Assembly (NCBI GenBank): GCA_018806915.1
Contig: JAGKQI010000048.1
Span: 248,001 to 312,000, forward strand
Reading direction: 5' to 3'
DNA length: 64,000 nt
Source of the DNA: Phytophthora colocasiae
Taxonomy: Eukaryota > Oomycota > Peronosporomycetes > Peronosporales > Peronosporaceae
Part shown: piece by piece, positions 26,161 to 46,183 of the stretch
How the letters are laid out: every line of letters starts with the position of its first letter
How positions within the stretch are numbered: position 1 is the stretch's first letter
Notes under the pieces: generated by a model
The model's database searches: none
What the model saw: only the letters and a program-made list of their open reading frames with translations
Told to the model about the DNA's origin: nothing
Position numbers and translations under genes: made by a program

Positions 26161-27844
26161 TTAAGACGCGTTGTCAACACTAGCAGCCCTTGCCTCCAGC
26201 GATGATAAGACACGACGTGCTGTCGACATGGCCATGATGTTGGTCATAAGAGACCACACAAAGGCGAACGTAAGGTAAGCCACCGTAAGAGCTCCCATGA
26301 TCTTGCTGCTGCCTCCCGTCCGTAGAAGCTCCTGCGTCTCTTCCTTCTGCTTAGGTAGGAAGATCAGGAAGACCCACGAGAAGGCCGTCATAGCGTACAT
26401 GATGATCACCGCGTACGTGATGTCCGTACGGATCGACTTGTCATCCTCTTGAATACGTTCCGTAGTCAGATCGAACGGTTGATCGATCACCAAAGTCATA
26501 GCAGTAGCAAAGGGCGTCGACAGGTTGGAAACCATCGTGATGAGACCGGACTACACGGATGAGATCCGAGCACGTATCAACTCGGACGCATCGTCACCTG
26601 CCGGCAAATACGTTATGCTCATGTTCGTTGCTGCTGTGGGTTACGTGCTGTCGGACGTCTGTGCTGATAGTATTGTGGTGGATTTCGCTCAACGTGAGCC
26701 CCTTGAGACCCGTGGCAAGACCCAGTCTGCAATTTATGCTACCCGCACGGCGTTTGTCATTGTGGGTGAGCTGTTCACCGGTTTTTGCTTCAATGGTGAA
26801 GAATATGGCGGTGACTTCGACTTCTCCATCACTTTTTCTCAATTGATGATCATCCTGGCTGTCCTAACAGCACCAGTGATTCCTATGACCTGGTTCTTCA
26901 TCAAGGAAGAGAAGAAGCCTCGTGTCAACCTCAAGGAATACATGAAGGAACTCTGGGAGTTGATCCAGAAGCGCGCGATGTACCAAGTCATTTTCTTCAA
27001 CTTCTTTCAGGGTATGTTCTCCAGTATCTCGTACACTGCCAGTTCTCCTGTATATGGTCAGTGTCACGCCGATCAACAGTACACTCAGTGATATCTTCGG
27101 TAATTTGCTCTTTATGGCCGGTATCACGGTGACATCCAAATGGGAGCTACACTGGAACTGGCGTTGGATGATCGTCTTCACTGGAGTGTTTGTCATGGTT
27201 GTAGATGGTATTACCACGTTCATCACGGTCTGGGACGTCTTCCGTAGTCAATGGTTCTGGCTCGGTCTGCCTGTGGCGGTACAACTCCCGTACGGTGTTG
27301 GCTGGATCATCGTTGAGCTGTCGGGTATCGGCAATGACGCCGGTTTGACGTCACGGTCGGAAGAAACCGTGTAGTACGGATCATCGGGCATACACGCCAT
27401 GATGAGCAGTGCAATAAGGCAGATGACCCAACCGACAACCATCCACGGACGACGACGGTATCCCCATAGAGGAACACAGTCGGACAGGATACCGTAGAAG
27501 CACTTGAAGCTCCAGGGAAGCACCACCAACGTTTGCGCAGTCGTCACTTGAGTACCAGAAGCATTGAGGAAGTTCTGCAGGAACGGGTAGATCGTAGCCG
27601 GTAGAACGCCGTAGTTGAGGCCGACGGCAGCGTACTGGACCAGTAGACCGAGACTGTCCTTGCTCTTGAGGTCTGGAGCGCCACCTTCACGCAGAGCTCC
27701 TCCTTCAATGCCGGTCGGGTCGGGTGTCTTGACCGTCGAGTAGTGGTTGCCGTCCTCAATGTCCTTGGGCTGTGAGGTGCCGCTAACGAACGACAATCGA
27801 CCGGGTAGATCAGCTTTGGCAGCGCCGTGGAGTGGAGTTGTCAT
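26161..27844 (-). pseudogene. BT1-family transporter A, middle third inverted
   Basis: The N-terminal part (27844-27338, minus) runs from the ATG to about SSDRDVKPA. The middle (26539-27337) lies on the plus strand, from DYTDEIRARI to VELSGIGN. The C-terminal part (26538-26161) is minus again, from LITMVSNL. The order matches transporter B (46630) exactly, except that the middle piece is flipped and 13-14 bp are missing at one junction. The plus-strand middle also has an 8-bp deletion (near 27055) that shifts the frame, and the tail after IMAM is shifted. BT1 proteins are 12-helix MFS-type carriers for folate or pterins at the plasma membrane. This copy cannot make one. Confidence 0.9.
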
Positions 27845-29002: not shown

Positions 29003-31010
29003 ATGGCCACGACAAAGCCCAAGAAGCGGAAGTATAGTAGTGAGAACGATGACAGAGATCATCAGGAGCCTGTCCAGTCGTTTGACACTTTCGATGGCGT
29101 GTTTTCGTCGTGGGAAGCGTTTCAGTCTGCGTTTGACAAGTACGTTTTGGCCTTATATGATTCCAGCTGCTTTCAATAGTACGAGGTTTAAGACAATACT
29201 TGTTTGCTACAGGTACAAAGAGGACACTCACCAGCTCTACAAGATCCGGTCGACGATATCCGTCAAGACCGGAATAGGTCGCGAGCTGCACAGGCAGCAA
29301 AGAGGGGTACCAGAGCGGAACTTTGGGGCGAGGAACTTGGCTCTTACGCAAAGTACTTCATCTGCACACATGGCTGGGAGTTTAAGCCACGTGGAAAAGG
29401 GACGCGGACAAACCATCGTATTCGATCAACGGGGTGTCCGGCGAAGCTGAATGCAAATCTATTCAAGGACAAGGATGATAATACTTTTAAGGTGCGAGTC
29501 ACAGTCCATAACGCCGGTCACAACCACGACGTCAACGGGAACGTCTATTACTCTTATCCGGAGGCGCGGAAAATCAATTCCCCTGGCACACAAAGCGTCG
29601 TGAAGACCCTTATTCAAGGTACATTGTGAATGCTCTGAACGTCGTCGGTATCTAATAGTTTATTTTGGATTACAGGAGGCTCAAAGAAGAAGAAGATTTT
29701 ACGTTATCTAAAGGAGGTCTCCGGTAAGCCTATTTTACCAAAGGACGTGAAAAATCTTATTGCCAAGATGCGGCGTGAAACCTACACTTCGGAAAATGAC
29801 AACGTTCGAGTCTCGCAATTGCTTCGTGATTTTAGCGAAGGTCCAGGCAATGCTGTCAACGTATTCAGAGATTCTACAACAGGGTTGACCTCGTGTATCA
29901 CCTTTCAGACTGCATTTATGCGTAGGATGACTCGAAAGTTTCCTGAAGCCCTCTGTGTTGATGCTACGTACGGCACCAACATCAATCGGTAATAATTGGT
30001 GTAGCTTTCACAAGGTTATCGGATCACCAACTAATTTATATGTTGAATTTGTAGTTACCGCTTGTTCAGCTTCATGGTCACCGATAAATTTGGCTGTGGC
30101 AAATTTTCACAGCATTCTTTGGTGGATGGAGAAAGCAGATCGAATATGGAGTGCGCTGTTTCTGCATTCAAAGAAAACAATCCGGCTTGGCGTGAGGTGA
30201 AGGTAATTATCATCGACAAAGATTTCACTGAGCTGGCTCTGCTGAAAGATGAATTCCCGAATGTTACGGTTATTCTTTGTCAATTTCACGTTATTGATTA
30301 CTTGAAGCGGGAGGTGAGCAAGAAGAACTATGGATTTTCGAACTTTGAGAAGACACATGTGAAGAACCTGCTGACGCTAATGGTTTGTGCGGCAACTGAG
30401 GAGTCATTCGGTCACTACCTTTCTGCACTACAGAAGCTATGTGAAACAAGACCTGTATTCATGGATTATTTGGAGAAAAATTGGTTGAAATGCAAGGGGT
30501 TATGGTGCACTTTTAAGCGTGGCAATATTCCGCATCTTGATAACAATACGAACAATCGTTTGGAAGCGAGCTGGGGTGCAGCAAAGGACATTTTGCACAG
30601 ACACATGGCAATGGATGAGTGCATCGACCACTTGCTCTTCCTGCAGCAGTCCGCAGAGGATGAATATAGCGCCAAAGTGAAACGTGTCGGATTTCGATTC
30701 AACCAGCGCTATGACGCCGAAATGAGCGTGTTAGCAAAGCTCGCCACTCACCACGCCTGTGATTTGGTAGAAGGCCAGTACACAGCCTGTCGTGCGGAAA
30801 GCTACTCTATCTCCGCGCTGATGAAGTCAGTCCCAGTTACGTCACCCTGACAAGTCATAAAATCCACGGTGCAACATTCGCTGTCAGTGTGCTGGAAAAC
30901 AAGTGTAGCTGCAGTTTTCACCAGACGGTGCTACTACCGTGCTGCCACATCATGTTTTTTGAGGCTCCAAATGAAGAATTTCGGTCTGTCATACTGCAAT
31001 ACGATTGTAT
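29003..31010 (+). pseudogene. MULE 2 transposase with SWIM finger, introns and frameshifts
   Basis: Starts ATG 29003 with a Lys-rich NLS-like KPKKRKY. Introns fit at 29140-29212, 29619-29675 and 29989-30054 (all GT-AG) and the joined frame makes sense each time. A FAR1/ZSWIM-like N-domain (IRSTGCPAKLNANLF, HNHDVNG) is followed by the MULE core: CVDATYGTN, VIIIDKDFTE and LCQFHVIDYLK, then NNRLEASWGAAK. A C-terminal SWIM finger (CSCSFHQTVLLPCCHIM, about 30910-30960) is one frame off after 30835, and another frame change is near 29270. At least two single-base lesions are present unless they are sequence errors. It would cut and paste the element via the TIRs. Confidence 0.85.
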
Positions 31011-31529
31011 CCCCGGAGAGATGGCTAATTGGTGACAAGGACTCCGATGACGAAGGCACAATTTCTATCTTTACTGTCAGAGACGTCGACGCTTCTACTA
31101 CACGTACTCTCGGGCACAATGAAAAGTATCGGGCTGGGTTTGCTGTTTGCCAAAAACTTGCCGAAGTTATCGCTGATAAAGGCACTCGGAGTTTCAACAA
31201 GTGGCTGAGTTACCTTACTAAGGTCGAAAGCATCGCAAGACTCGACAATGTGGTCCCTCTGTCCTCCACAAGTGTCCACAGTGATCAATAGTACTGGTGG
31301 TTTGTGGACCTACAACCAACACTGTTAGAGTTTGTGACCCTAACACCAACTCTCCCGGTGTTTGTGATCAAGTCACCAACTCTTATAGTATTTGTGACCC
31401 AGTTGCTTGTGTTTCCAATGTTGATGAAACTGAACCCGGTCCACCACTGTCACTACTTCAGCATTAGCTAGTGGAAATGTTGGCGACCAAGTACCAGACA
31501 CGCAAACCAATCGTGAAGAGACTCACGTA

Positions 31530-32056
31530 ATGGATCCTACACTAGGTTCCCCAAGTGATAAAGGTGGCGCTACCGAGACCAATTCTGAGCGAGTTTGTGA
31601 TGCGATCACCAATTCAGCTCGAGTTCGTGAATCAATCACCAACTCAATCCCATTGTCCAGACAAGTGAAACAGGCTACCCCAGAACAGCAAGCCGGCGCT
31701 CAAATTTACGTGACAGCAGATATGAGGATAACGGGAACAGTACGGACGAAGATTTGACTGTTAAACTTAATCCGGCCAGCAAACCATCGGGACGGCCTAA
31801 AATCAGGCGAGCAACTAAAAGGGCTAAAGTACGGAAGGAATTTGAAAACACCAAGGCATTAGCTGACCAACTCAACACTGTGGGTGATATTACGTTAGTA
31901 ACCCTTCGAGACTACGTTGATGAGAAGAAATTATCGCTTGCAGCAGTGGGGCCGATATTCTCTGCGATTCAAGTCAGGCATCAAGAGGCAAAGTTTAAGC
32001 GGCCTAAAGCGCGAGTTCAAGTTGGCAGCGAAAAATTGGCAGCGTGCGCAAATTGA
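31530..32056 (+). other. Region between MULE transposase and protease
   Basis: Frames 31530-31757 and 31754-32056 are open and Ser/Thr/Asn-rich, then basic (KIRRATKRAKVRKEFENTK). Upstream, 31290-31480 has repeated phrases encoding or resembling TNS...FVTQ (GTTTGTGA...ACCAACTC, several times). They may be a low-complexity linker of one long MULE protein ending in the protease. Confidence 0.45.
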
Positions 32057-32792
32057 CGCGATGGGTGGAGAAGAGATCTGACACAGAGGAAAGAAGCACT
32101 ATTTTGACAAGACTGCCACTGTTGAACATGTATTCGGCATTTAAATCGAGGATTGGTGAAACAATTATTCAATTTGATGACCTTACGAAATTTGCTGGAG
32201 AAGGATGGCTCTCGGACGGGTGCGTCTTTGTAGCGTCGCTTCATACAGCCTCAAAAGCAAAAATGACTGGAAAATAGAGGTGGTGTCAACGAGATCATTG
32301 CGGTGGATCCTGTATTTCTAGGCTTTCAACAAGAAGAAGACCGAAAAGACTGCTGGATACCAATCGCCAAATATTCAGTAAAGGTGCCAAGGGCGAGTGG
32401 TTTTTCTTCCGGTAAATATCGAAGTGGACATTTCGCACTGGTGTGCAGTAATTTTTGACTTTCGCAGTGAAATACTGTGGATTTACGATCCGATGCACAG
32501 GATCGACTACATCTCTAAAGTGGAAAAGATAATGACCGATTACGTCATTCCGTTTGTAGATCCTGGTTATAAGTTCACGCCGAAGACGTCGACCGCTTGG
32601 AAGCAAAATGACGGTTACAATTGCGGCGTGTTGATTGTAAAGTGGTTTGAAGTATTTCTGAACGTGGCAATGCACACAGATGCAACGGAAGACCTACAAA
32701 CATTGACGCAACAGCGAATCACCGCAAAAGACGTAGACGAATGCAGATACAACATGTTCGCCACAGTTTTCTTAGATGCTTGCAATAATTAG
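32044..32792 (+). pseudogene. Ulp1/C48-type cysteine protease domain carried by MULE 2
   Basis: An upstream part (32044-32277, with KFAGEGWLSDGCV) and a main part (32397-32792) form a C48-type fold. The catalytic triad candidates are His in ISHWCAVIF, Asp in IYDPMH and Cys in KQNDGYNCGV (with the oxyanion Gln). The two parts are in different frames around 32275-32400, so the copy is damaged. C48 enzymes process or remove SUMO-like modifiers, and plant MULEs of the Kaonashi type also carry such domains. A role in transposition is unknown. Confidence 0.8.
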
Positions 32793-33400: not shown

Positions 33401-33404
33401 CCTC

Positions 33405-33981
33405 TGTCGCGAGTCGGTCTTGGGCGGGACGGTAGACGCTGCGGGTTACAAGTAGAACGGAACGGTAGAGCTATAAAAGCGCACCACAAAAAGTAAAGAA
33501 AAATATAAAAAGCGATTATTCTTTGACTTGGGGCTTGTGCTGCGGTGCCCAAGGTAAATTCACGACTGACCTCCACCAGCACGCCCTTCCTTCACTGTTT
33601 TCCAACGTCTCACGTCCTCCAGAGTCCTCTTCCTTGTCCTTCCCGGGTCCGTACCTCCTCGACGGTACCACTCACCCCTTCCTCACGCATACTCGGGGCG
33701 CTGTTAAGCCCAGCGTAGTTCTAGTCCGTGTCTTCCGTCCTTGGCATCAGCTTACACGCAACCTGGCGCACGCTCCACGCTCTTTCTTGGCTGCGCAGAT
33801 CTCGTTTCCTTAGCAATAGCGGCGCGCACTCACCCTCGTGCTGGCTGCGACCGGGGCCGGCTCGAACAACTCCTCGCCATACATATGGTCTTCCGCAATG
33901 CGACGGGTCGTGGATCGGGTTTGAGAGGGGGAACGGTCGGGACCGTACCCGAGACGGTGGCCACCGTTCTCACTCGGGACA
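33405..33981 (-). repeat. Gypsy LTR, 3' copy (577 bp)
   Basis: Near-identical to 45555-46131. One difference was seen (G at about 33468 versus A). The plus strand carries TATAAAAG at 33472-33479, a second TATAAAA is at about 33504-33510, and a TATATTTT reads on the minus strand. Confidence 0.95.
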
Positions 33982-34451
33982 TCCTCCCCGACTGAAACTC
34001 GACGCCCACGTCGAGCGGCTCGCTCTCGAGCAGCAGCAGCGAGCTCGTCCCTTTGCACTTGTTCCTTCAGCTCCTGTCTCTCGGCTTCCCACTTCCGACC
34101 GAGATTCACGCGAGGTCTAGGACCTACGCAACCGTCTTGACGCCAGAACGCTTCACTCAGACGCTCGGCCTGCTCTTGATCTTTCAGATCCTTGACCCAC
34201 TGGGCGTAACGGTCCCCAGCCATTTCAAAAGGCGTCAGACCTCCTGAAGACGCTTCGTAATAACGGAGAGCCCTACTCGCAAAACCCACGACGACGACAG
34301 CACCGCTCACTCTTATTGTATCATAGTCGAACACGAACCCGTCCTCGGACGCTAAGCCACCGTCCACCAAGGCGTAGTTCAGGACGGTTAGGAGCACCTG
34401 ACCCCGACACTCCATAACAGGCCCACTCCAACAGTTCGTATACGTACACAA
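33810..34451 (-). CDS. Second part of the Gypsy 3' accessory ORF
   Basis: 213 codons, running into the LTR. It begins inside the overlapping membrane-protein frame. Contents: a hydrophobic patch (VSGAVVVVGFASRALRYY), a charged helical stretch (AQWVKDLKDQEQAERLSEAF, then KWEAERQELKEQVQRDELAAAARER) likely to coil, and a basic disordered tail. It probably continues the ORF at 34321-35028 after a frameshift near 34400, giving one protein with a membrane part and a cytoplasmic coiled tail. No family recognised. Confidence 0.5.
   Translation of the reverse strand: MCTYTNCWSGPVMECRGQVLLTVLNYALVDGGLASEDGFVFDYDTIRVSGAVVVVGFASRALRYYEASSGGLTPFEMAGDRYAQWVKDLKDQEQAERLSEAFWRQDGCVGPRPRVNLGRKWEAERQELKEQVQRDELAAAARERAARRGRRVSVGEDVPSENGGHRLGYGPDRSPSQTRSTTRRIAEDHMYGEELFEPAPVAASTRVSARRYC
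33982..33989 (-). other. Gypsy polypurine tract
   Basis: On the minus strand GGGGAGGA directly precedes the LTR's TGTCCC, which confirms the minus orientation. Confidence 0.8.
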
Positions 34452-35028
34452 CCGTGTAAAACACAGCGTATAGCGTCAGCGACGTAAAAGCCCAGAACCC
34501 ACGACCGGCACAGCACGCTCTATCAACCGTTCTCCGGCACTCCACTTGCGAACCGTTCCAGTATTTCACGGAGGAACGGCAGCCTAGTTCCAAGACGTCC
34601 GGTACGAACACGCACCACAGGGCATGGAAAGCCTCCAACCACTTGTACAGCAGGCGTCCCAGGCCGTGTAAATGTTCATCTCTAACTTCCAGTATAGTCA
34701 ATGGTGCCAGCCACAAAGCTTCGTACATCTTCCACCGACGCTCGGACGGAGAGTTGTGAAGAAGCACGCTCCGACTAACAACCCGGCGGTAGCTCTTGAT
34801 GCTTTCCTTGGCGATATCGGCCCACTTGTACGAGAAACAGAAAGCCGTCCATCCCAACCGCGCCACTATGTTCCAAAGGGGCTTGGTAATCAACCAGAGG
34901 AGCACACCCCCGAGCGCCCACAGCAATCCTAACCAGTGGTAGCGAACGAGGTGCCACACCAGCACAGTAGACGAGCGTACCATCCACAGACACCATTCCA
35001 TAACTTCCTCAGTCGAGTCGTCCTCCAT
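34321..35028 (-). CDS. Membrane-protein ORF at the env position of the Gypsy element
   Basis: 235 codons between pol and the 3' LTR. There are two or three strongly hydrophobic segments: about residues 24-45 (LVRYHWLGLLWALGGVLLWLI), 45-70, and about 175-200 (FWAFTSLTLYAVFYTVVYVY). The segment between has several Cys and a possible N-glycosylation site. The position is that of env in errantiviruses and some plant Gypsy elements, but there is no signal peptide or furin-like site and no sequence likeness to any envelope was seen. So env is only a positional name. It may equally be an unrelated accessory protein. Confidence 0.55.
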   Translation of the reverse strand: MEDDSTEEVMEWCLWMVRSSTVLVWHLVRYHWLGLLWALGGVLLWLITKPLWNIVARLGWTAFCFSYKWADIAKESIKSYRRVVSRSVLLHNSPSERRWKMYEALWLAPLTILEVRDEHLHGLGRLLYKWLEAFHALWCVFVPDVLELGCRSSVKYWNGSQVECRRTVDRACCAGRGFWAFTSLTLYAVFYTVVYVYELLEWACYGVSGSGAPNRPELRLGGRWLSVRGRVRVRL

Positions 35029-35285
35029 GCCGACACCAATTGCAAAGTGCTTAGCAGTTCCATATAGCTTCTCCGTTCCGCTAGTCCGTGGTCAACAATC
35101 TCAATTAGATGTGTACCGTGTCCCACATCACTCAATTGTCAGATCCGGTTCTTTCCTCTAAATTTCTGGTCCTCAACTGGCGTATCAACCGCAGTCTCGC
35201 GACATCAATCACAGAGGCAGGGCATCAGGCGTCTCACTCGTCAGTCCCGCATTCGCCTCCAGTCTCCAAAGTTACCCCCGCCACC

Positions 35286-36942
35286 ATGCCGAAATCCCCA
35301 GAATCAAACAAGGACGCCATCGTTGGTCGTCTCCGCGCCCGCCTGGACACCATGGCCAAGTCCAGCGGCGCCGACAAGTCTCTCGCCGCCCAAGTGGACT
35401 TCTACACGCAGTTCCGTTCCCTCCTAGCCATCAACGACGCTTCCACAGGCCTTGAAGCCCTCGACAACCTCGCTCTCTCCATTGTTACTGCTGACGGGAC
35501 GGTTCCTTCCGTTCTTAGTGAAGTAGTAACGCTCCTACCCGCTCCGGACTCCATGCGTTCAGGCAGTCCTCCGCCACATTCTCTCTTCAATCCGTCCTCC
35601 TCGTCCAAGCGTCCAGCCACCCGAGGCTCCTCCAAGTCCAGCCCTCCAGCCAAGAAGCAACGCACCAGCAGCTCGTCATCTCCATCTCCCGCGCCCAGCA
35701 AACTGGCTTACAAGTTTGAGTTGCCGCGCGACATTCCCAAGCCCATCAAGAACGACATTAACAAGATCCTCACGGAGGCTACCGAGCGTGGCAAGGCTCC
35801 GTTCCGTCTCGCGTATCCATGGTCCCAGCAGCGCGCCTGGTACGACCCCAGCGAGTACCCCGACCTCTACCTCTCGCACTACCGTTTCTGGATGAGACAC
35901 CGCTCCGTCTTCTTCGACTGCGCGCTGTACGCGCCCACCGACAAGGCCGGCGCCCGGCGCAAACAGAAATCCGCCGCCGTTCAAGCTCGGCTTTGTTTCA
36001 TCAGCAAGAACATCGAGACCTTCGGCTACTACGACTTCCTCGACCGTCTTGAGAACGGCACCCACGACACGCTCATGTGGTACGGGGGCAAGGCCGCCAC
36101 TCACTCAGCTGCAGCCGCCAAGGCCCAGTCCGACTCCTCCGCCCCAGCTCAATCCGACCTCGCAACACTCTTCCGCCGTGACCGTTCGCGATATGAGCGT
36201 ACCGTCGCCCGCGCCCTCGACCCTCTCTCTGTGGACGAAGACGGCTACTCATCCGTCCCTGATCTTCTCGAGCAGACTCAAGCACTGGACCCCACTCGCC
36301 GACCCCATCTCCGCCTCTCCGACGTTGCCTTGGCTCGCATCGTGCTTGACGTCAACGGAGGATCTCCTCCGACCGCAAGTTGGGTCGGCAACCGGTCCAG
36401 CGGCGTCTGGAAGCGCCTCCTCTCCGACCGTACCCTCCGTCCCGTCCAGATCGACGTGGTCAAGCGTGTCCTGAACGGTACGCACACCGTGGACTTTGAC
36501 GACAAGCCGTTCAAGCTCTCCGATCTAGGTGACGACGACCTGATTACGAAGACGAAGACACTGGAGCGCCCACGATTCTTCCTCCGTCCCCGCCCATCGA
36601 CGGATCTTACCCAGCCGAAGACTCCGACCAAGAAGAAGGCTCCGACGAAGAACAAGAGGACCCTTCCCAAGAAGACGAAGAAGAAGACGAAGAAGAAGAT
36701 AAGGAGACAAGCGACGGCCCCGACGACGACAAGTCCAGCGATTACCACGGCTCCGACGAAGACAAGCCTCGCTCCACCAAGAAGGATGACAAGTCCAAGA
36801 AGACTTCCCCCGACAAGAAGGAAGACAAGCCCAAGAAGTCGTCCCCCGAAGACAAGAAGCCCTCGTCCGAGTCGAAGAAGACGGGTGGCTCACCATCTAG
36901 CGCCACCGCCGCTTCCCCCGCAGCCTCGCCTTCCACCAAGTA
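35286..36942 (+). pseudogene. Large antisense ORF of the Gypsy element
   Basis: Runs against gag-pol. ATG 35286 has a strong GCCACC context. About 415 codons stay open with high third-position C. Layout: an N-domain (RLRARLDTMAKSSGADKSL), a Ser/Pro-rich linker with an NLS-like PPAKKQR, a compact domain (FELPRDIPKPIKNDINKIL ... YPWSQQRAWYDPSEYPDL ... RHRSVFFDCALY), and a KLSDLGDDD end. The natural tail is in the next frame from about 36545: Asp/Glu-rich, then Lys/Ser/Pro-rich, stop at 36940-36942. So one base seems lost near 36540. Read in the original frame, an unnatural Arg/Lys/Pro tail continues to 36998. No known domain recognised; it may be a nuclear, RNA- or chromatin-binding accessory protein. 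Plant Grande elements also carry an antisense gene at this place. Confidence 0.65.
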
Positions 36943-36998
36943 ACATCCACATTTCGCGCGCGCCATTCAGCTCTCTCTCTTTGGGCTTTTTTCCATAA

Positions 36999-37123
36999 CA
37001 GCGCGTCACTAATCTCATAATCCAACATGCAATTTCACCTTCCAACCGTTCCCTTCAAGCGTTCTGTTCTCTTCATTGCCCTTAGCGTCCATTTCACTTA
37101 GGGTATTGCAGGTGTGAGGTCTG
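36999..37123. other. Short spacer between the antisense ORF and pol
   Basis: Convergent ends of the two coding directions. Nothing recognised. Confidence 0.5.
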
Positions 37124-38215
37124 CTAAGCCAGCAGCAAGTCGTCCTCGTTGGCTTCAGCATTAGCCTCCTCCAACCGAGGACTCCGGCGCCACTCTGGCA
37201 AACCCTTCTTTCTTCTTTCTGCCTGCTCATAGGCGTCCACTAGGGGACGGTACTCAGGCATGAGCTCCGACCTAGGGACCCAAAACGTCTCGTAGCTCGC
37301 CGTCAACACCAAGTACTCGACCACTCTGTCCACTGTACGCTTTGCCACCACTTCGAGTAACGGAGAATCTACTCCTGCGAGAACGGTATCGCTCCCGGCG
37401 ACAGTTAATCGTTCCGCAAAGCTAGAATGGGGCAAATCTTCTTCCTCCAGCGGTCCGTCCTCCGCAGTTTCTCCGTCCCCTCCTAGCCCTTCGGGGACCT
37501 CGTCCAGGAACGGACGCGTCCACTTGCCACGGTACTTCTTCAAGCGGTTCACATTGACCGTGACTACCCGGCTCGGATGAGTAGGGATAGCAACCCGGTA
37601 CGCATTGTCATTCACTTTCTCGACAACACGGTACGGTCCGTGCCATGCAAACGCTAGTTTCTTCGCTCGTGCCTCACCTCGCTTCGCCCTAAACAACTGG
37701 AACACCCACACTGGGTCGCCGTCCTCGTAAACCACCGGCACTTGACCGCCTAACCGACGCTCATGACGGTCCTGGGCCTTCACCAACTGACGCTCCACCA
37801 GGAGCCGCGAGTTTCTCAGAGAACGGTGGAGTTCCCGACGGTACAGTGCCACCTCGTCACTTTTCCATTTCTTCCCCAAATTCAAAAATGCCACATCCAG
37901 AGGCAACACAGGGTCACGACCATACAACGAGAAGAAAGGAGAGTCGCCCAACGCCTCATGGTAGGCCGTTCTATAGGCGAACAGCACTCTAGGGAGGTAC
38001 AGATCCCAGTCCGTCTGTGCCTCGTTGACATGCATCCTTAGCATGCCCAGTAGTGTTCCGTTGAACCGTTCCACTAACCCCTGAGTCTGGGGATGGTACG
38101 CAGCCCCAAACAACTTCTTAATCCCCAAAATCTGGTAGAAGGACTTCGCGATCTCCGACGTGAAATTCGACCCTTGGTCACTCAGCAACCGTACCGTGCC
38201 GCGCGACCACTCCAT
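37124..38215 (-). pseudogene. Gypsy integrase C-terminal part
   Basis: Continues the integrase from 38178-39854 after a one-base frame change at about 38190-38200. Contains the second catalytic Asp (SDQGSNF) and the Glu (GLVERFNG), an SH3-like/GPY region (YRVVEKVNDNAYRVAIP ... VNVNRLKKYRGKW), an acidic linker, and a C-terminal stretch (VVEYLVLTASYETFWVPRSEL) that resembles a degenerate chromodomain. A chromodomain would target insertion to marked chromatin. 363 codons. Confidence 0.88.
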
Positions 38216-39854
38216 TAATCATTGCTTCCACAAAAGTCATCGAGTCCAACCGTTCTACCGCGAACGCTTCCGCCCAACGCGTGAAGTAGTCCACAAACAC
38301 TAGGATATACTTGTTCCTTCTCTCGGTCCTTGGTAACGGTCCCACGGCGTCGACCACTAACAGCGAGAACGGTCCGTTAAGGTCCGTTACCGGCATCCTT
38401 TGCATCTGGCCAGCTCTCCACGGTCTAGCCCCTTTACCGCTCCCACAAGTATTGCATTCCCGCACGTACTCCGCTACATCCTTCCTCCATCCTGGCCAGA
38501 ACGCGTGTCTCCTCACCTTCTCTAGCGTCTTCGTCAGGCCCAAGTGCGACGACAAGACGTCCGCATGACAGTAGTGGAGGACGGTTTCCATGTAAGGCAC
38601 GGGGACCACTGGCACGGTCAACGACCGTGCTGGCCCCACCCGGGCGGGTAAATTAACACGCCGTGTCAACATGCCGTCCTCGACAGCGTATCTAGGCCCC
38701 ATCTGTACTACACGAGCACGCAGGTACGGATCAAGCGGAAGCGCTCCGTCCTTCAGGTAGGCCACCAAAGCTCGCACCCACGAAATTTTCTGCTGTTCGG
38801 CCACGAACTGGTCGCGGTTCAGACCGAACCTATCCAAAGAAGACCTCGCGCGTTCCCCATCCTGCTCAACCTCAGCTTCCTCCCTCAACTCCTCGTGCGG
38901 CGGATCGTCTACGTGTCCGTCCGCCTGCTCTCCTACGGCCGCTCCGTCCATTTCATCAAAATCCGGCTCACCGTCCTTCTGCTCACCGTCCTCTGTCCCC
39001 CCGTAGTCAACATCACCGTCCAATTCGTACGGCTCCCCGACTGAAGGCGGAAGCCCGTCTCCGTCTTTCGGATTCAGCAGGTCCTGTATCGTCAGAGCAG
39101 CCACTCGTCCCCTTGGCAGCCTCGAGAGACCATCCACGTGACCTAGCGACGTTCCAGGCTTGTGATGAACCTGGAACTGCAGGCTCGACAGCTCCATCGC
39201 CCACCGTGCCAACTTAGCGTTTGAGGTACGGTTCCCAGGACTGAAGATCCACTTCAGGGCCTGGTGGTCCGTGAACAGATCAAACTCGCGCCGATCCAGG
39301 TAGCAGCGGAACTTCCTAGTCGCCCACACTACTCCCCAGCACTCGATCTCAGAGATGCCATCTTGGTTGTTTATCCAGTTCTTTTGCGACCCCGTGAGCA
39401 ACTTGCTCGCGTAGGAGACGGCACGGTCACGACCGTCCACTTCTTGCATGAGGCAAGCTCCAACAGCGTACCGTGACGAGTCGACATACAACTTGAACCT
39501 CTTCTGACTGTCCGGGTACACCAGAATCGGTGGCTTCATAAGGGCACGTTTGAGCTGCCTAAAGGCAGACTCACAGTCCTCCGTCCACACGAACGGTGCA
39601 TCTTTTACTTTCAACCGTTCCAAGGGCGCCGAAATCGAGGCGTACCCCGGGATGTAGCGTCGAAAGTAGCTAGTCAGTCCGAGAAACGAGCGAATCCCAT
39701 GTAAGTCCACTGGTCTCCTCACATTCAGCACAGCCTTCACCTTCTCGGGGTTAGGAAGGACGCCCGAGGGCGTGACGATGTGTCCTAGGAACGCCACTTG
39801 GCTCCGTCCCCAGTGACACTTCTTCATTTTGAGCTTGAAGCCCGCCTCCCTCAA
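38178..39854 (-). pseudogene. Gypsy RT end, RNase H and integrase N-terminal part
   Basis: Same frame as the protease-RT segment but separated from it by a single TAA at 39867-39869. Contains the RT thumb (FLGHIVTPSGV), RNase H (LYVDSSRYAVGACL, ECWGVVWATRKFRCYL, DLFTDHQALKWI), an acidic spacer, the integrase HHCC finger (HADVLSSHLG...CNTCG) and the first catalytic Asp (LLVVDAVGPLP). 558 codons, ending by frameshift inside the integrase core. Confidence 0.9.
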
Positions 39855-39866
39855 CCTCGTCAGGAC

Positions 39867-41411
39867 TTAACGAACGCGTAACAGGTGCGTCGGGAAGTCC
39901 TTGCTGAACACTACGCAATCGTCCAAATAAACTAGGCACACTCGCCACTTCAAATCCACTAGAACCGTCTCCATCAACCGTTCGAACGCGGGTACAGCGT
40001 TACAGAGGCCAAAAGGCATAACGAGCCATTCGAAGAGGCCGTATTTGCACGTGAAAGCCGTCTTTGATACACTGTCCCGCGCCATCGGTACGTTCCAATA
40101 CCCGGATGCGATGTCCATGGTCGAAAACAACTGGGCACCCCCGAGCACGTCCAAAATGTCATCGATCAACGGCATCGGGTAACAGTCCTTCACCGTTACT
40201 GCGTTCAACTTGCGGTAATCTATACAGAATCGGATACCACCGTCCGGTTTCCTTATCATGAGAACGGGGCTAGCCCACGGACTGTTCGATGGACGGATCA
40301 GTCCCGCGTCCAAATACTGCTGTATCTCCGCTTCCATCACTTCTCCTTCCGCTACGGATACACGGTACGGTTGCTGTTTGATGGGCCGACTATCGCCCGT
40401 GTCAATCTCGAAGTGTAGCAGTTCCGTCCGTCCCGGCATCGCCGAAGACTCGACAAACAGGTCACTGAAATTGTCCAGCTCTGCTTCAAATATCCGCTTC
40501 TGTTCCTCCGTCAACCTCGACTGCGAAAAGTCAGCCTTGACCGTGGCTTTGTCAGGCGGCACTTCCGGCCGAGACTTCCGTTCCTTCTCAGCAATCTGTT
40601 CTTTAGGCGCTCCTGTCGCGGACTGCACTCGACCGTCCGTTTCCGTTGTCTCCGGGTTCCTCGGTACCGCTCCATCCTTCGTCTGCATCTGGCCGAAAGC
40701 CGACTCCGGAACGACCGAAGCGCACGCAACCGGCGTACCACGGCGAATCCACCGTTCCTCTGTAGATGCGTTACAGACTTCAACTATGACTTGACTGTCC
40801 TCCACAGTACTCAACGAGTGCGCCACACACAGTGTGGGCGGAAGGGATACAGCGCCTTCAATGAGCACCGTAGCCTTCTCCTCCGGTGTCCCTACCAACT
40901 TTGCCATGACTAAAGCTTGTCCTTTAGGCGGCAGGCGTATTGACTTCACCATCGTCGCCATGTAAGCGTCCTGTACAACCATACCCCCAAGGGGCAACAC
41001 CTCGCCTGAGTCTTTAAGCAGGAGCTGACGCTCAGCCACATCAATGACCGCTCCGAACGCTCCAAGAGCGTCTACCCCCAGGATGGCGTCCACATGCAAC
41101 TGATCCGCGACTACCAAACTCAGCGAAATCTCTGCACTTCCCATTCGTAACGACAAACTCGCCCACCCTCGGATCTTCAACTGAAGTCCGGAGGAGCTCT
41201 TGACCGATCCTTCGTACGGCTTCAGCGTCTTCGTCGACCGTCCTAGCCGCTTCAGCACACGGCTATCTACCAAACTCAGTGTAGCTCCCGTATCCACGAG
41301 TAAACGAGAATGCAAACACTCAATAAAACCCACTTGATAACGCTTCGAAGTTCCCAACAGCACACACCACGCGTCGACCGTCTTCAACCACAGTACATAC
41401 TTCCATTTCAT
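39867..41411 (-). pseudogene. Gypsy protease and RT palm
   Basis: The aspartic protease motif LLVDTGATLSLVD lies near residue 35 and ILGVDALGAFG near 115. RT fingers and palm follow (RPSNSPWASPVLMIRKPDGGIRF..., MDIASGYWNV, FGLCNAVPAFERLM) with the catalytic YLDDCVVFS. The frame ends in an in-frame TAA just after the YLDD block, and the next base triplets stay open in the same frame, so this is one nonsense change. 514 codons. Confidence 0.92.
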
Positions 41412-42806
41412 CCATGTCTCCCTCCGACACGCCGAAACCGTCCGGCATTTCTACCGTGACAACCTCAACAAGGCCCGGACGAGGGGGAGGCGCAACCGTT
41501 CCAGGCGGCGGTCCCACCACGTCCACATAGCTTATCACATCTTCATCACTCAGCAACAGTTCAGCATTCATCAACACCTCCGCGTACGGTCTAAACATGG
41601 CCTCGAAGTCAATCTCGGGCCGCTGTCGACCTCGTCTCTTAGCAGCAATCTCCGGGTCCTCTCTTACTTCTCTCCGTTCTATCAGTTTCTCCCAAATGAT
41701 CGTCGCGTTCTCGTCGTAATATCTCCAAAGCCGTCGCCTCCAACCGTCCCCAATCCAAATTCCGAACGTTCCTGGAGGCAGCGACTTCCTTCGCTAGTTT
41801 CCCAGTTTGGTCAGGTCCGCCTTCGGAACTTTATCACGCAACGGGAGTGATTTCCTGTTGGAACGCTTCCTCAGGAACAAGTACACTGCGCGTTGGACCA
41901 CGGTCCTCGCCAAAGTAGGTGAAACAACGACACGGTTCCCAGGACGGATTCTGGCTCCGTAGCAACAGTCCCACACGGCACTTGGATGGACGCCGCGAAG
42001 TCCTCTAGCTGCGACAAGATGTTAGCACTGACTTCCTCTTCCGTAGTAGATCCTTCCTTTGGACTCGCGTCTCGCTCTCTAAATGGTTTAGGTTTCCGCG
42101 CGCTGGGTTCCTTTAACACCGTTCGTCCCACTACCTGCACAACTGACGACTTGAAATCGCGGTTAGCACGCTTGGCTTCTTCAGTCTTCTCGAGCGTCTC
42201 GCGGAACCATCCTAGCCAGTACTCGGGCGAGTCGGCTCCATCTGTGGACGCTCGCCGAGTACGCTCGACTACTTCGAGCGGGACGTCCAACAGAGAGGAC
42301 AGTTCCTCATTAGAGGGCTCTCGTAAAGATGCTGCGTTCAACCGTATCCGTTCCATAGTATCAGCTTCATCCAAAGGGTGCAAACGATCCTCAATTTCTT
42401 TTTCGTATTCTTCTGACTCGCTGAAAACCTCCGTTCCATCCAGGTCACCAGGTGTCCCTTCACAATCCCTGGACTTGAGAGCCTCAAGCTCCGCGTCCGT
42501 GAACAAGCAGTCTGTAGGGTGTTCCGCGGGTGACACGACGTCCGCTCCGTCCCCTACTTTGGTCCGTTCCGTTACTGAATCCGCTCGCCCCTCAACTTCG
42601 GTACCAGAGGCGTCGAAGATGTCGAACGACAACTCCTCCTCCGACAGCTCGTCATCCTCGAGTACTTCCTCCTCTAGTAGGCCGTCTTCGACCGCCTCTA
42701 CCAGCGTGGAGGCGGGCTCCGCCAACTCACGAGTCGCTTTACTACCCGCCTCTACTTCATCGACGAACCGTACTGTCTTCTGTCGACGTTCACCGTTCTC
42801 TTCCAC
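41320..42806 (-). pseudogene. Gypsy acidic region between gag and protease
   Basis: From 42806 to about 41960 a 311-codon acidic frame (many E/D runs, e.g. EEEVLEDDELSEEEL) leads into a second frame (41976-41320) that is interrupted by a TAG at 41794-41796 and contains a compact region (IWIGDGWRRRLWRYYDENATIIWEKL by position 41770-41690). It then overlaps the protease frame near 41340-41400. A Lys-rich stretch (KKKKKKKPRG at about 42930) precedes it. Such acidic inserts are not part of the usual Gypsy gag-pol. The function is unknown. Confidence 0.6.
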
Positions 42807-43069
42807 ACGGGCGTCTTCCTTTCTTTCCGTTCCTTTTCTTCAATCTTCTTTTTCTTCTTTTGTCTCTTTTCTTCAGCCTTCCGCGCGGTTTTCACCGTCC
42901 CTCGCGGCTTCTTCTTTTTCTTCTTTTTCTCGTTCATCCCACTCTCCGTCACCACGGCAACCGTCTTCTCTTTCCCGAATTCCTCCTCAGCACGGTCACC
43001 GTTCGAGCCATTCGCCAGACAAGAGGAAGGAGTGGCTCGCTCCTCCCTTCCTCACGTCCCCGTCAATTC

Positions 43070-45229
43070 CTAGGCCGCAGGCTGGGCCGTCGATCCAGCC
43101 GCCAATCCTTTCAAGGCAGCGATCGTCGGACACTGGGCCACTGGATGACCGTTTTCCCCACAGAAGTAGCACCTGAACCCTTGAGCGTTAGAGGGAGCTC
43201 CGTTCCGTCCTCCTAGTTGACCTCCATTATAAGGGAGCTCACACTCAGCTGCAACGTGGCCATACTGATTACACCTCCGGCAAGTCATCGTCCTTCTCAT
43301 ACATGTAGCACGACCATGTCCCCTGTAGTAACATCGGCCACACACCGGTTCACCTTCCTGCGTACGGGTATCTTCCGCCATCCTGATTCCACGATAGCTT
43401 CTGTTTCCGTCCCCAGTCGCAGGAGCGTTCCCTGCGGTAGTGGCAGCTACGGTCAGTGACCGTCCTCGAGGTGACGAAGGTCTAGCCTTGCGCTCGTCCA
43501 TGAGTTGCTGCTGCCAAAGCTGCTGCTGGGCCATGAACGTCTGCAACTGCTGAGTCAATGCGTCCACCGTGGACGACGTATGACCGTTCTTGTTACTTTC
43601 TGGAGCTCCGTCCGAGAACTCCTCGTCTTCCTCACTAGGCCGATGCATGTCCTTCGACATCAACCACTCACACGCCTCGGGAATGTCGCGAGCCGGGCTA
43701 GAATCCAAAGCAGCCAGCATCCGACGGTTCCTGAGACCTCGACGGAACAGTTTGTACCGCATCTGCGGGTTCGGATAGTCGAGCGAGTCGCACAAGTCCG
43801 TGACTCGATCGCCCCACTCTTCCACCGATTCGCCCCTCTGTCTCTTGGTAGTATGCAACCGATCCCAAAGCTCGTCAGCCGTCCTGCTCAGGAATTGGTT
43901 GTGAAAGCGAACCCTGAGAGTAGCAAATGTTTTGATCCTGGAGTTGCTCCACCACCGTTCCGCCTCTCTTCCTTTCAGCTTCTGACGGAACACCAACAAC
44001 CGTTCTCGGTCGGGCAACTGTCCCGTGTGCGCCTCGAACAGCTCCCAGAAGTCACGCGCCTTCTCCACAGTGGCCGTGTCTGAATAGAACATAGGCAACA
44101 CCTTCATCACGTTTGACATCTTCTGCGTTAGGTCGTAGATCCTGGGCGGCGGAGGCGGTCTAGGAACGCCATACCCACCACCGTACTGTCCATAAGCTCC
44201 AGGGGGAGGTCCAACTAACACTCTTTGCCCTCCCAGCACAGTCCTCGTCGGCACAGGTGGGACAGTAGGCTGTCTCCATCCTTGCGTCGGCGCAGCGTAC
44301 GCTGTCCGAGGGACGCTCGTCTGGGTTCCTGCCAGGGATGGCCCCCGAGACACGCTCGTACGAAGAGGCGCTTGTCTAGGTGTACCCACTGGTTGGGTCG
44401 CAGGCGACTGAACGCCTATAGGAGTCGTTATTCCGGGCAGCGGTTCGGTCATCGGCGGGGCCGACGACGCAGCAGTCACCGCAGACCGGAGCGGTACGTC
44501 CTGCTGATCCCACGCGAACGGCGCAGCCGTCTCCGTCTTCACCTCATACGGGTCCTCGCTCAGTGTTCCCCAACCCCATCCAAGGGGACGGTCCGTGCGA
44601 CGCTTCTCCGTTCCCGTGTATCTCGAGATAAACCCTGTAGGCGTCCTCATAGGGACTTCTTCGACTACTTCCTCCTTCATCATCGGTTCTTCCGTAGGGT
44701 ACATCATGTGCGCTCGTTCATAGGCGTCGTAGTCCGGGTAACCTTCGTACATCTGCTGACCAGCGTACAGAGCGGCCAGCCGTGCCGAACCGTACACCGG
44801 ATCCATCAATGGAGCGCTCGGGACCGTACTCTCCACGGTCGGCTCCTCCGTTACTTCTTCCTTCTCGTCTTCCTCGTCGGCGGGTTCCGGCTCGTCCGGC
44901 TTCTCCTCCTCATCGCCGGCCTCAGCACCAGCCGTCAGGAGATCATCTCTCAACTCCTGCCTCAACGTCTCGCGACCAGCGGCCGTGCTGACTCCCACCG
45001 ACGGTTCATCATCTTCCTCTGCTTCTGCTCTCTTCTCCAGGCTAAGCGGGGCATCTCCACCGCCACTACGCGAAGCCTCTGCTTGGCGCGACCGTTCTTC
45101 CTCTTCCAGTCGCTCCACTTCGGACAGGACCCGGACCGTCTTCTGACCTCCGGCCCGTCCACCCCCACGACCACTGTTTCCTCGGCCTGGGGTACCTTTC
45201 CCTCCATCTCTTCTTCCAATCCCGGACAT
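43070..45229 (-). CDS. Gypsy gag polyprotein
   Basis: 719 codons, open. The N-terminus is Gly/Arg-rich (GRGNSGRGGGRAGG), then acidic, then Pro/Tyr-rich. The capsid-like retrotransposon gag domain spans about residues 370-500 (FYSDTATVEKARDFWELFEAHTG, RFHNQFLSRTADELWDRLHTTKRQRGESVEEW). Three CCHC zinc knuckles lie near the C-terminus: CGRCYYRGHGRATC, CRRCNQYGHVAAEC and CYFCGENGHPVAQC. It packages the RNA. It starts about 325 bases inside the 5' LTR and ends in TAG. The pol frames follow in other phases. Confidence 0.92.
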   Translation of the reverse strand: MSGIGRRDGGKGTPGRGNSGRGGGRAGGQKTVRVLSEVERLEEEERSRQAEASRSGGGDAPLSLEKRAEAEEDDEPSVGVSTAAGRETLRQELRDDLLTAGAEAGDEEEKPDEPEPADEEDEKEEVTEEPTVESTVPSAPLMDPVYGSARLAALYAGQQMYEGYPDYDAYERAHMMYPTEEPMMKEEVVEEVPMRTPTGFISRYTGTEKRRTDRPLGWGWGTLSEDPYEVKTETAAPFAWDQQDVPLRSAVTAASSAPPMTEPLPGITTPIGVQSPATQPVGTPRQAPLRTSVSRGPSLAGTQTSVPRTAYAAPTQGWRQPTVPPVPTRTVLGGQRVLVGPPPGAYGQYGGGYGVPRPPPPPRIYDLTQKMSNVMKVLPMFYSDTATVEKARDFWELFEAHTGQLPDRERLLVFRQKLKGREAERWWSNSRIKTFATLRVRFHNQFLSRTADELWDRLHTTKRQRGESVEEWGDRVTDLCDSLDYPNPQMRYKLFRRGLRNRRMLAALDSSPARDIPEACEWLMSKDMHRPSEEDEEFSDGAPESNKNGHTSSTVDALTQQLQTFMAQQQLWQQQLMDERKARPSSPRGRSLTVAATTAGNAPATGDGNRSYRGIRMAEDTRTQEGEPVCGRCYYRGHGRATCMRRTMTCRRCNQYGHVAAECELPYNGGQLGGRNGAPSNAQGFRCYFCGENGHPVAQCPTIAALKGLAAGSTAQPAA

Positions 45230-45554
45230 TCTTCAAACTTCCAATACCTCCAAACTCCAATTCCCCAATACTTCACTTCCAATACTTCAACGCTTCACTT
45301 CCAACTCTTCCGGACCGTCTTCTACTTCTGACCTTGACTCTTCCGACCAATACTCCCGATACTCCAACTTCTGTTCCGTGGGAACTCACAAACTCGGGAA
45401 TTCCGCGCTCCCTGCGCCCCCGAGACTTTGCTTCTCAACCGTGACCGTCTGGACTCGATACCAGACCGCGTACACGCCGGGTTCTTCGACTCCACGGGCT
45501 CTTCCGACTTGCTCTTACTTGACAACGAATGCCGTACCCTGCTTCTCCACCACG
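45230..45554 (-). other. Gypsy 5' untranslated leader
   Basis: Lies between the 5' LTR and gag (read on minus). A TGGTGGAGAAGC begins 3 bases after the LTR end, the place of a tRNA primer-binding site. The cognate tRNA was not identified. Confidence 0.55.
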
Positions 45555-46131
45555 TGTCGCGAGTCGGTCTTGGGCGGGACGGTAGACGCTGCGGGTTACA
45601 AGTAGAACGGAACGGTAAAGCTATAAAAGCGCACCACAAAAAGTAAAGAAAAATATAAAAAGCGATTATTCTTTGACTTGGGGCTTGTGCTGCGGTGCCC
45701 AAGGTAAATTCACGACTGACCTCCACCAGCACGCCCTTCCTTCACTGTTTTCCAACGTCTCACGTCCTCCAGAGTCCTCTTCCTTGTCCTTCCCGGGTCC
45801 GTACCTCCTCGACGGTACCACTCACCCCTTCCTCACGCATACTCGGGGCGCTGTTAAGCCCAGCGTAGTTCTAGTCCGTGTCTTCCGTCCTTGGCATCAG
45901 CTTACACGCAACCTGGCGCACGCTCCACGCTCTTTCTTGGCTGCGCAGATCTCGTTTCCTTAGCAATAGCGGCGCGCACTCACCCTCGTGCTGGCTGCGA
46001 CCGGGGCCGGCTCGAACAACTCCTCGCCATACATATGGTCTTCCGCAATGCGACGGGTCGTGGATCGGGTTTGAGAGGGGGAACGGTCGGGACCGTACCC
46101 GAGACGGTGGCCACCGTTCTCACTCGGGACA
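45555..46131 (-). repeat. Gypsy LTR, 5' copy (577 bp)
   Basis: Partner of 33405-33981, same length, TG...CA, followed by the CCTC target copy at 46132-46135. TATAAAAG on the plus strand at 45622-45629. Confidence 0.95.
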
Positions 46132-46183
46132 CCTCGTGTTGTTCATCATCCATCAGCCACAGTATCCACTTGTCCTTGACCTT

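Follow-up and report, generated by a model that had tools for sequence, protein, structure and literature searches.

A conserved antisense accessory gene in a Ty3/Gypsy retrotransposon lineage of Phytophthora

The element and its genes

The window, the whole stretch of 64,000 nucleotides of Phytophthora colocasiae DNA analysed here, contains a Ty3/Gypsy LTR retrotransposon on the minus strand. The 3.1 kb between its integrase end (37124) and its 3' LTR, 33982-37123, hold two further genes, an antisense accessory gene (AS) and a sense membrane ORF (MEM). The features are listed below, with the basis of each in parentheses.

33405..46131, minus strand: Ty3/Gypsy LTR retrotransposon, 12.7 kb (LTR alignment; terminal TG...CA and TSD visible in the sequence)
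33405..33981, minus strand: 3' LTR (LTR alignment)
33810..34451, minus strand: frame with the remainder of MEM in the window copy, running into the LTR (copy comparison)
34321..35028, minus strand: sense membrane ORF, MEM, 235 aa in the window copy (open frames, hydropathy)
35029..35285, no strand: MEM-AS divergent spacer, the AS-proximal part of which (35109-35285) is conserved and is not an open frame in other copies
35286..36998, plus strand: antisense accessory gene (AS); the window copy has 570 codons (open frames; copy comparison)
35286..35585, plus strand: AS N-terminal helical part, about residues 1-100 (structure model, block pLDDT 62-89)
35607..35663, plus strand: disordered linker with bipartite NLS-like motif KRPATRGSSKSSPPAKKQR (loose pattern search)
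35706..36515, plus strand: AS helical core, about residues 141-410 (structure model, most blocks with pLDDT above 90, one stretch near 65)
36542..36943, plus strand: acidic Ser/Pro/Lys-rich tail region, coding in intact copies (copy comparison)
37124..38215, minus strand: integrase C-terminal frame, convergent with AS (Pfam SH3_Tf2-1, Integrase_p58_C)
38178..41411, minus strand: pol, which in the window copy occupies two frames, with domains of protease, RT, RNase H and integrase (Pfam)
41871..42806, minus strand: probable gag frame (position only)
45555..46131, minus strand: 5' LTR (LTR alignment; 576/577 identical to the 3' LTR, one mismatch)

The TSD CCTC, read from the sequence, flanks the element at 33401-33404 and 46132-46135. 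Because its 577-bp LTRs differ at a single base, the element is young, in agreement with a first-pass annotation of this DNA. The same annotation had described the 3.1-kb module and had placed the antisense gene between the integrase and the 3' LTR, and both descriptions hold. It had further described AS as running against gag-pol. AS does lie on the opposite strand, but it overlaps neither gag nor pol, being convergent with pol and divergent from MEM across a spacer of 257 bp. Pfam gave no match for the gag frame. The end of the integrase frame (37124-37400), which by eye looks chromodomain-like, gave no Pfam match to a chromodomain at E up to 1. Directly to the left of the element, at 30062-32792, a MULE / ZSWIM1-3-like transposase frame is followed by an Ulp1-type (Peptidase_C48) frame.

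Compared with other copies, the window copy lacks single bases at six sites in 33405-38300 and has no extra bases, a site being counted where the base is present in at least 8 of 10 compared copies. Considering that the LTRs are nearly identical and that the pattern is one-sided, the missing bases may reflect assembly error.

Copies of the antisense gene

The plus-strand open frame around AS spans 35109-36998, and the gene begins at the ATG at 35286 in the context GCCACCATG, just as first annotated. From this ATG the window frame extends for 570 codons rather than for the 415 originally assigned. The figure of 415 corresponds to the part shared with other copies, because at about this residue the window copy leaves their frame: residues 1 to ~415 are shared with them, while the remainder is read in a different frame in the window. 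Over 35286-36524 the window has 5, 12, 7, 11 and 14 stops in the five remaining frames, and overlapping antisense coding was rejected.

Twenty copies were fetched for comparison, the window's own place included. AS is intact as one frame of 536-552 aa in nine of them, the window copy carries another tail, and the remaining ten are broken or truncated. The first 415 residues of the intact copies are 97.3-99.5% identical to the window protein. Past residue 415 these copies continue into an acidic tail rich in Ser, Pro and Lys, for which the match extends over 74-133 residues; in one of them (L040) it contains 46 acidic and 19 basic residues among 137, a net charge of −27. The first-pass annotation had asked whether the frame is broken at random in most copies. 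Breakage or truncation affects 10/20, but nine copies are intact, codons 1-413 are free of indels in 10 of the 12 copies covering this part of the element, and the changes found there are mostly synonymous.

Selection on the antisense gene and its neighbours

Pooled pN/pS values were calculated from 12 of the 20 copies, excluding eight in which the AS region is truncated or broken (L049, L051, L052, L054-L058) and retaining two with small gaps (L050 and L053). The ratio was 0.088 in AS over codons 1-413, 0.120 in MEM over 211 codons and 0.164 in integrase over 355 codons. A ratio near 1, the neutral outcome considered in the first-pass annotation, is excluded for AS. That the AS ratio lies below that of integrase is largely because pS is higher in AS (0.073 versus 0.045), pN being similar (0.0064 versus 0.0075); purifying selection on AS thus appears at least comparable to that on the adjoining integrase, and calling it stronger is unsupported. 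Judged in the same way from its sequence, MEM is under selection too.

Given that pairwise pools are not independent, counts of variable sites are a better test. Among the 12 copies, variable AS sites were distributed 11/15/60 over the three codon positions, with 60 of 86 at the third (binomial p 6e-12), and sites variable in at least two copies were distributed 4/2/44 (binomial p 2e-15). A second subfamily (L031-L034), about 36% identical to the window protein, gave 11/11/34. Between subfamilies dN/dS is uninformative, synonymous sites being near saturation. The codon-position and cross-subfamily evidence rules out a chance ORF, and AS is almost certainly a genuine accessory gene encoded by an oomycete Gypsy lineage.

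Age and placement of the family

The same genome contains relatives of AS with protein identity as low as about 30%, and open frames of 500-770 codons are found in many of them. An integrase match lies within 4 kb 3' of AS at 51 of 57 AS places, and in 51/51 of these it is on the opposite strand. The arrangement was also counted from the integrase side, using AS places merged from two own-genome protein searches (n=89) and integrase matches obtained by scoring 112 of 2968 first-look candidates. Past the integrase C-terminal end, among the best 66 of 116 integrase matches, AS was found on the opposite strand in 56/66 and on the same strand in 0/66, with no AS match beside the other 10/66. Because the place and strand of AS are constant beside integrase matches while its relatives are highly diverged, the antisense layout is, on sequence grounds, long established in its element lineage, which comprises several subfamilies in a tree of 40 rows. 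The fixed place and strand also rule out a nested recent insertion.

Three database searches yielded 85 distinct homologous proteins, and all rows naming a species are Phytophthora, covering 13 species. The Phytophthora homologues are annotated as “hypothetical”, “uncharacterized” or “unnamed”, one of them also as an effector in UniRef. This one (P0063, P. oleae V7S43_010193, “RxLR effector protein”) is 76% identical to AS over 17% of the query, and its effector label is probably a mis-annotation or the result of a chimera.

The predicted protein

A structure model built from a 66-sequence alignment (mean pLDDT 82, pTM 0.64) begins with N-terminal helices, followed by a linker modelled at low confidence (105-139) and by a helical core at ~141-410 that is mostly above 90. 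Net charge is positive in the linker (+8) and in residues 141-415 (+7). A bipartite basic NLS-like pattern ahead of the core is present in 47 of the 66 family rows, compared with 10.8% of shuffled controls, the pattern being loose and doubtful matches having been accepted in some rows (e.g. P0068, P0073). The NLS-like patch of the first-pass annotation is present and recurs across much of the family, and from the sequence the product is likely nuclear.

A Pfam search with the window protein found nothing at E up to 1, and the 66 family members gave scattered weak Pfam matches only. The AS profile found no solved structure at E up to 1, while comparison of the predicted fold gave no convincing match and found no known DNA- or RNA-binding fold. 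The model, Pfam and structure searches therefore agree with the ordered domain of no recognised family that had been described, and the fold search recommended at that time returned a predicted helical core without a convincing counterpart. Kinship with Transposase_28 was rejected, none of the 66 members matching PF04195 at E up to 1. A tRNA-phosphotransferase-like winged helix, suspected from the stretch DEDGYxSIPELLEQ, found no support in the fold or Pfam results. As far as searched, the AS protein family looks new.

The membrane ORF and the divergent spacer

The membrane ORF noted earlier beside AS is present, but it is shortened in the window, where it has 235 aa, compared with one frame of 391-406 aa in 9/20 copies. 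Hydropathy analysis of L050 gave two hydrophobic stretches at KD 1.6 and five at KD 1.2; in MEM of L033, which is cut by the locus end, four stretches have a mean KD of at least 1.2 over 19 residues. A MEM relative occurs in a diverged subfamily (23% over 175 aa, E 2e-9), and Pfam gave no match to MEM. As a sense ORF downstream of pol with hydropathy-predicted transmembrane segments, MEM corresponds in these respects to an env-like aORF-3S. Its hydropathy makes it look like a multi-pass protein rather than a classical envelope glycoprotein.

Between the two genes, pairwise difference per site among 12 copies was 0.010 in the AS-proximal part of the spacer (35109-35285) and 0.032 in the MEM-proximal part (35029-35108), which shows no special conservation. 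For comparison, AS third positions gave 0.055, the spacer between AS and integrase 0.088 and the LTR 0.012. Since all 15 other spacer-holding copies carry an extra base relative to the window, 35109-35285 holds no conserved frame. Divergence varies along the element, and for this reason recombination between copies could partly explain the low divergence of the spacer.

Upstream regions were searched for the oomycete core-promoter motifs INR, FPR and DPEP (PMC3599244, as described there). An INR+FPR-like block lies 68 nt upstream of the L062 ATG with one mismatch, equalled by 0/300 shuffles. In the window, a weak block with 2 mismatches of 16 lies 45 nt upstream of the ATG (22/300 shuffles equal). 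Blocks upstream of L031, L033, L059 and L064 were no better than chance; as single exact motifs, INR and DPEP occur in L031 and L033, and FPR occurs in L064. The test of L063 covered 26 upstream bases only. At MEM starts, shuffles were as good in 29/300 (window) and 48/300 (L033). Taken from sequence features of this kind, a promoter of its own for AS in the spacer is plausible.

A free-standing relative

About 52 kb to the left of the window lies an intact 498-codon relative of AS (L059; C43:194258-195751, L059:459-1955). The surrounding 9.2 kb contain no protein match to integrase, RT, MEM or gag below E 0.02 and no DNA match to the window element, and comparison of its two flanks for a repeat gave one 21-bp match only. 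Its neighbours are genes for a BIG2_C protein and a BT1 transporter (flanks L060 and L061). L059 is single in its own genome, where the next best sequences are 63-66% identical, and P. citrophthora P3T76_007615 is 87% identical to it over the full length.

In the 40-row tree (midpoint root), L059 and P3T76_007615 fall in a clade with the element-borne L062 and L063 with support of 100/100, while placement of L059 directly beside L062 has support of 82/65 only. The pN between L059 and L062 is a modest 0.23, with synonymous sites saturated. From these sequence features L059 is a candidate domesticated host gene. Because it sits within a clade of element-borne copies, its tree position would fit element-to-host transfer better than capture of a host gene.

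Several further observations were made by eye. A short transposase-like stretch lies to the left of L059, and a frame by the BT1 gene (L060:3457-3999) resembles the start of a tyrosine recombinase of Crypton type. Window positions 26161-27844 hold fragments similar to the BT1-type transporter of L060; those for its N- and C-terminal parts lie on the minus strand and the one for its middle part on the plus strand, which looks like an internal inversion or an error of assembly.

Proposed function

We propose that AS is an accessory gene with its own promoter and that its protein regulates the element in trans from within the nucleus, a reading we consider probable. AS would be transcribed from a promoter in the spacer that separates it from MEM, so that its expression would not depend on the LTR promoter. 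The protein would enter the nucleus through its bipartite signal. There the core would bind to a host factor or to the element's RNA or chromatin, and the acidic tail might recruit or displace host transcription or chromatin proteins. By analogy, its action may resemble that of the antisense nuclear proteins of Grande and HTLV (HBZ). That the regulated step is transcription or silencing rather than another nuclear step is a narrower proposal, to which we give slightly under an even chance.

Two other roles would keep the protein as the active product. The core might join the pre-integration complex and bring it into the nucleus or to chromatin, making AS a nuclear-import or integration co-factor; the bipartite NLS-like pattern and the retention of AS beside integrase in the AS subfamilies seen are consistent with this, and such a role has been discussed for plant antisense proteins in a review of these genes (PMC7264820). 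For a structural cofactor, however, sense expression with gag-pol would be simpler and an antisense gene an odd route, and we regard this role as unlikely. AS could instead act on RNA, as a Rev-like exporter, a packaging factor for full-length RNA or a suppressor of host RNA silencing. Transcription of both strands would yield double-stranded RNA, provoking host silencing; small RNAs from both strands of P. infestans Gypsy elements have been reported (PMC3522703), although the report does not present those elements as the same family as the window element. The net basic linker and residues 141-415 would suit RNA binding, yet no known RNA-binding domain was found in the AS family, and an RNA factor likewise seems an improbable answer.

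Other explanations deny the protein a role for the element. Other LTR elements are known to produce antisense transcripts that do not code for protein (PMC7264820), and the AS transcript rather than its protein could be the functional product. The pN/pS of 0.088 and the third-position excess argue against this, as do the retention of frames at 30-40% protein identity and the intact 498 codons of the free-standing homologue; codon constraint largely refutes antisense RNA alone as the product, leaving it an exceedingly small chance. AS might also be a recently captured host gene, or belong to a different element inserted into this one, and do nothing for its carrier. The position of L059 between host genes would be in keeping with such an origin, but AS is under selection at a constant place and strand in the subfamilies seen, and L059 falls in a clade with the element-borne L062 and L063 (100/100), which makes capture or nesting very unlikely. 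Building on the trans-acting nuclear regulator that we prefer, a wider and decidedly tentative reading is that such a regulator with a new fold evolved independently of those in plants, fungi and retroviruses, together with a multi-pass MEM and a shared bidirectional promoter, and that the regulator also became a host gene (L059, P3T76_007615). As part of that reading, the host-gene relative perhaps controls the same elements.

Relation to known antisense genes

Antisense ORFs between pol and the 3' LTR are described in Grande, RIRE2, Retand, PvRetro13 and the fungal Boty, and the function of conserved antisense accessory genes of LTR retrotransposons is given as unknown in the same review (PMC7264820). 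By layout, the window element belongs with these aORF-3R-bearing retrotransposons: AS is an additional ORF, located after pol and before the 3' LTR on the strand opposite to gag-pol, lies beside 56/66 of the best 66 of 116 integrase matches and is conserved like other element proteins. The layout is therefore known, whereas the protein looks new. The first-pass annotation had seen an undescribed function in the module; of this the unmatched protein family stands as far as searched, while the arrangement is of a described kind, found also in fungi.

Grande of maize likewise is a Gypsy element with an antisense gene, gene23, between pol and the 3' LTR that is kept in many copies. This aORF-3R gene encodes a nuclear protein and has its own promoter (PMC7264820), so that nuclear location is observed in Grande and predicted for AS, and a promoter is reported in the one and proposed in the other. 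This comparison is one of layout, and AS differs in its oomycete host. The antisense ORFs of Retand share place, strand and lineage-wide occurrence with AS, 97% of Retand clusters carrying Transposase_28 in the region between pol and the 3' LTR (PMC11963269); their function is unknown, with DNA binding suggested. They differ from AS in their PF04195 domain (0/66 AS members at E up to 1). A PF04195 search of the whole P. colocasiae genome gave no match, and control genomes gave none either. The 0/66 count fits the earlier suggestion that the layout arose more than once, without proving it. A divergent, selected MEM adjoins AS, whereas the sense ORFs of the Retand region are described as being without putative transmembrane regions (PMC11963269).

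Boty / BcGypsy1 of Botrytis, likewise an LTR element from a filamentous plant pathogen, carries an additional antisense gene, brtn, likened to AS by its description. HTLV-1 HBZ and HTLV-2 APH-2 are antisense-encoded nuclear regulators of an LTR element, a likeness by analogy only. HBZ is a bZIP protein, unlike the AS core, a helical domain of no recognised family. The HTLV antisense promoter lies in the 3' LTR (PMC7264820), whereas that of AS is proposed in the spacer. Among oomycete elements, Chronos is, like the window element, Ty3/Gypsy and found in Phytophthora. Its pol ends in a chromodomain and includes, next to the Gypsy RNase H, another RNase H of archaeal type. In the window pol frames, a single degraded copy, the only RNase H models matched at E up to 1 were RT_RNaseH and RT_RNaseH_2, so that the archaeal-type enzyme of Chronos has no Pfam match there. 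The word “antisense” is absent from the main text of the Chronos paper, and among the titles and abstract openings surveyed no description of an antisense gene in an oomycete retrotransposon was found.

AS thus represents another antisense-gene lineage, carried in an oomycete, with a confidently predicted core and no Transposase_28 match. The homologues suggest that many public Phytophthora “hypothetical proteins” may be element gene products. If antisense genes have separate origins in plants, fungi and oomycetes, long Gypsy elements may repeatedly face a problem that is solved by a nuclear protein encoded on the opposite strand.
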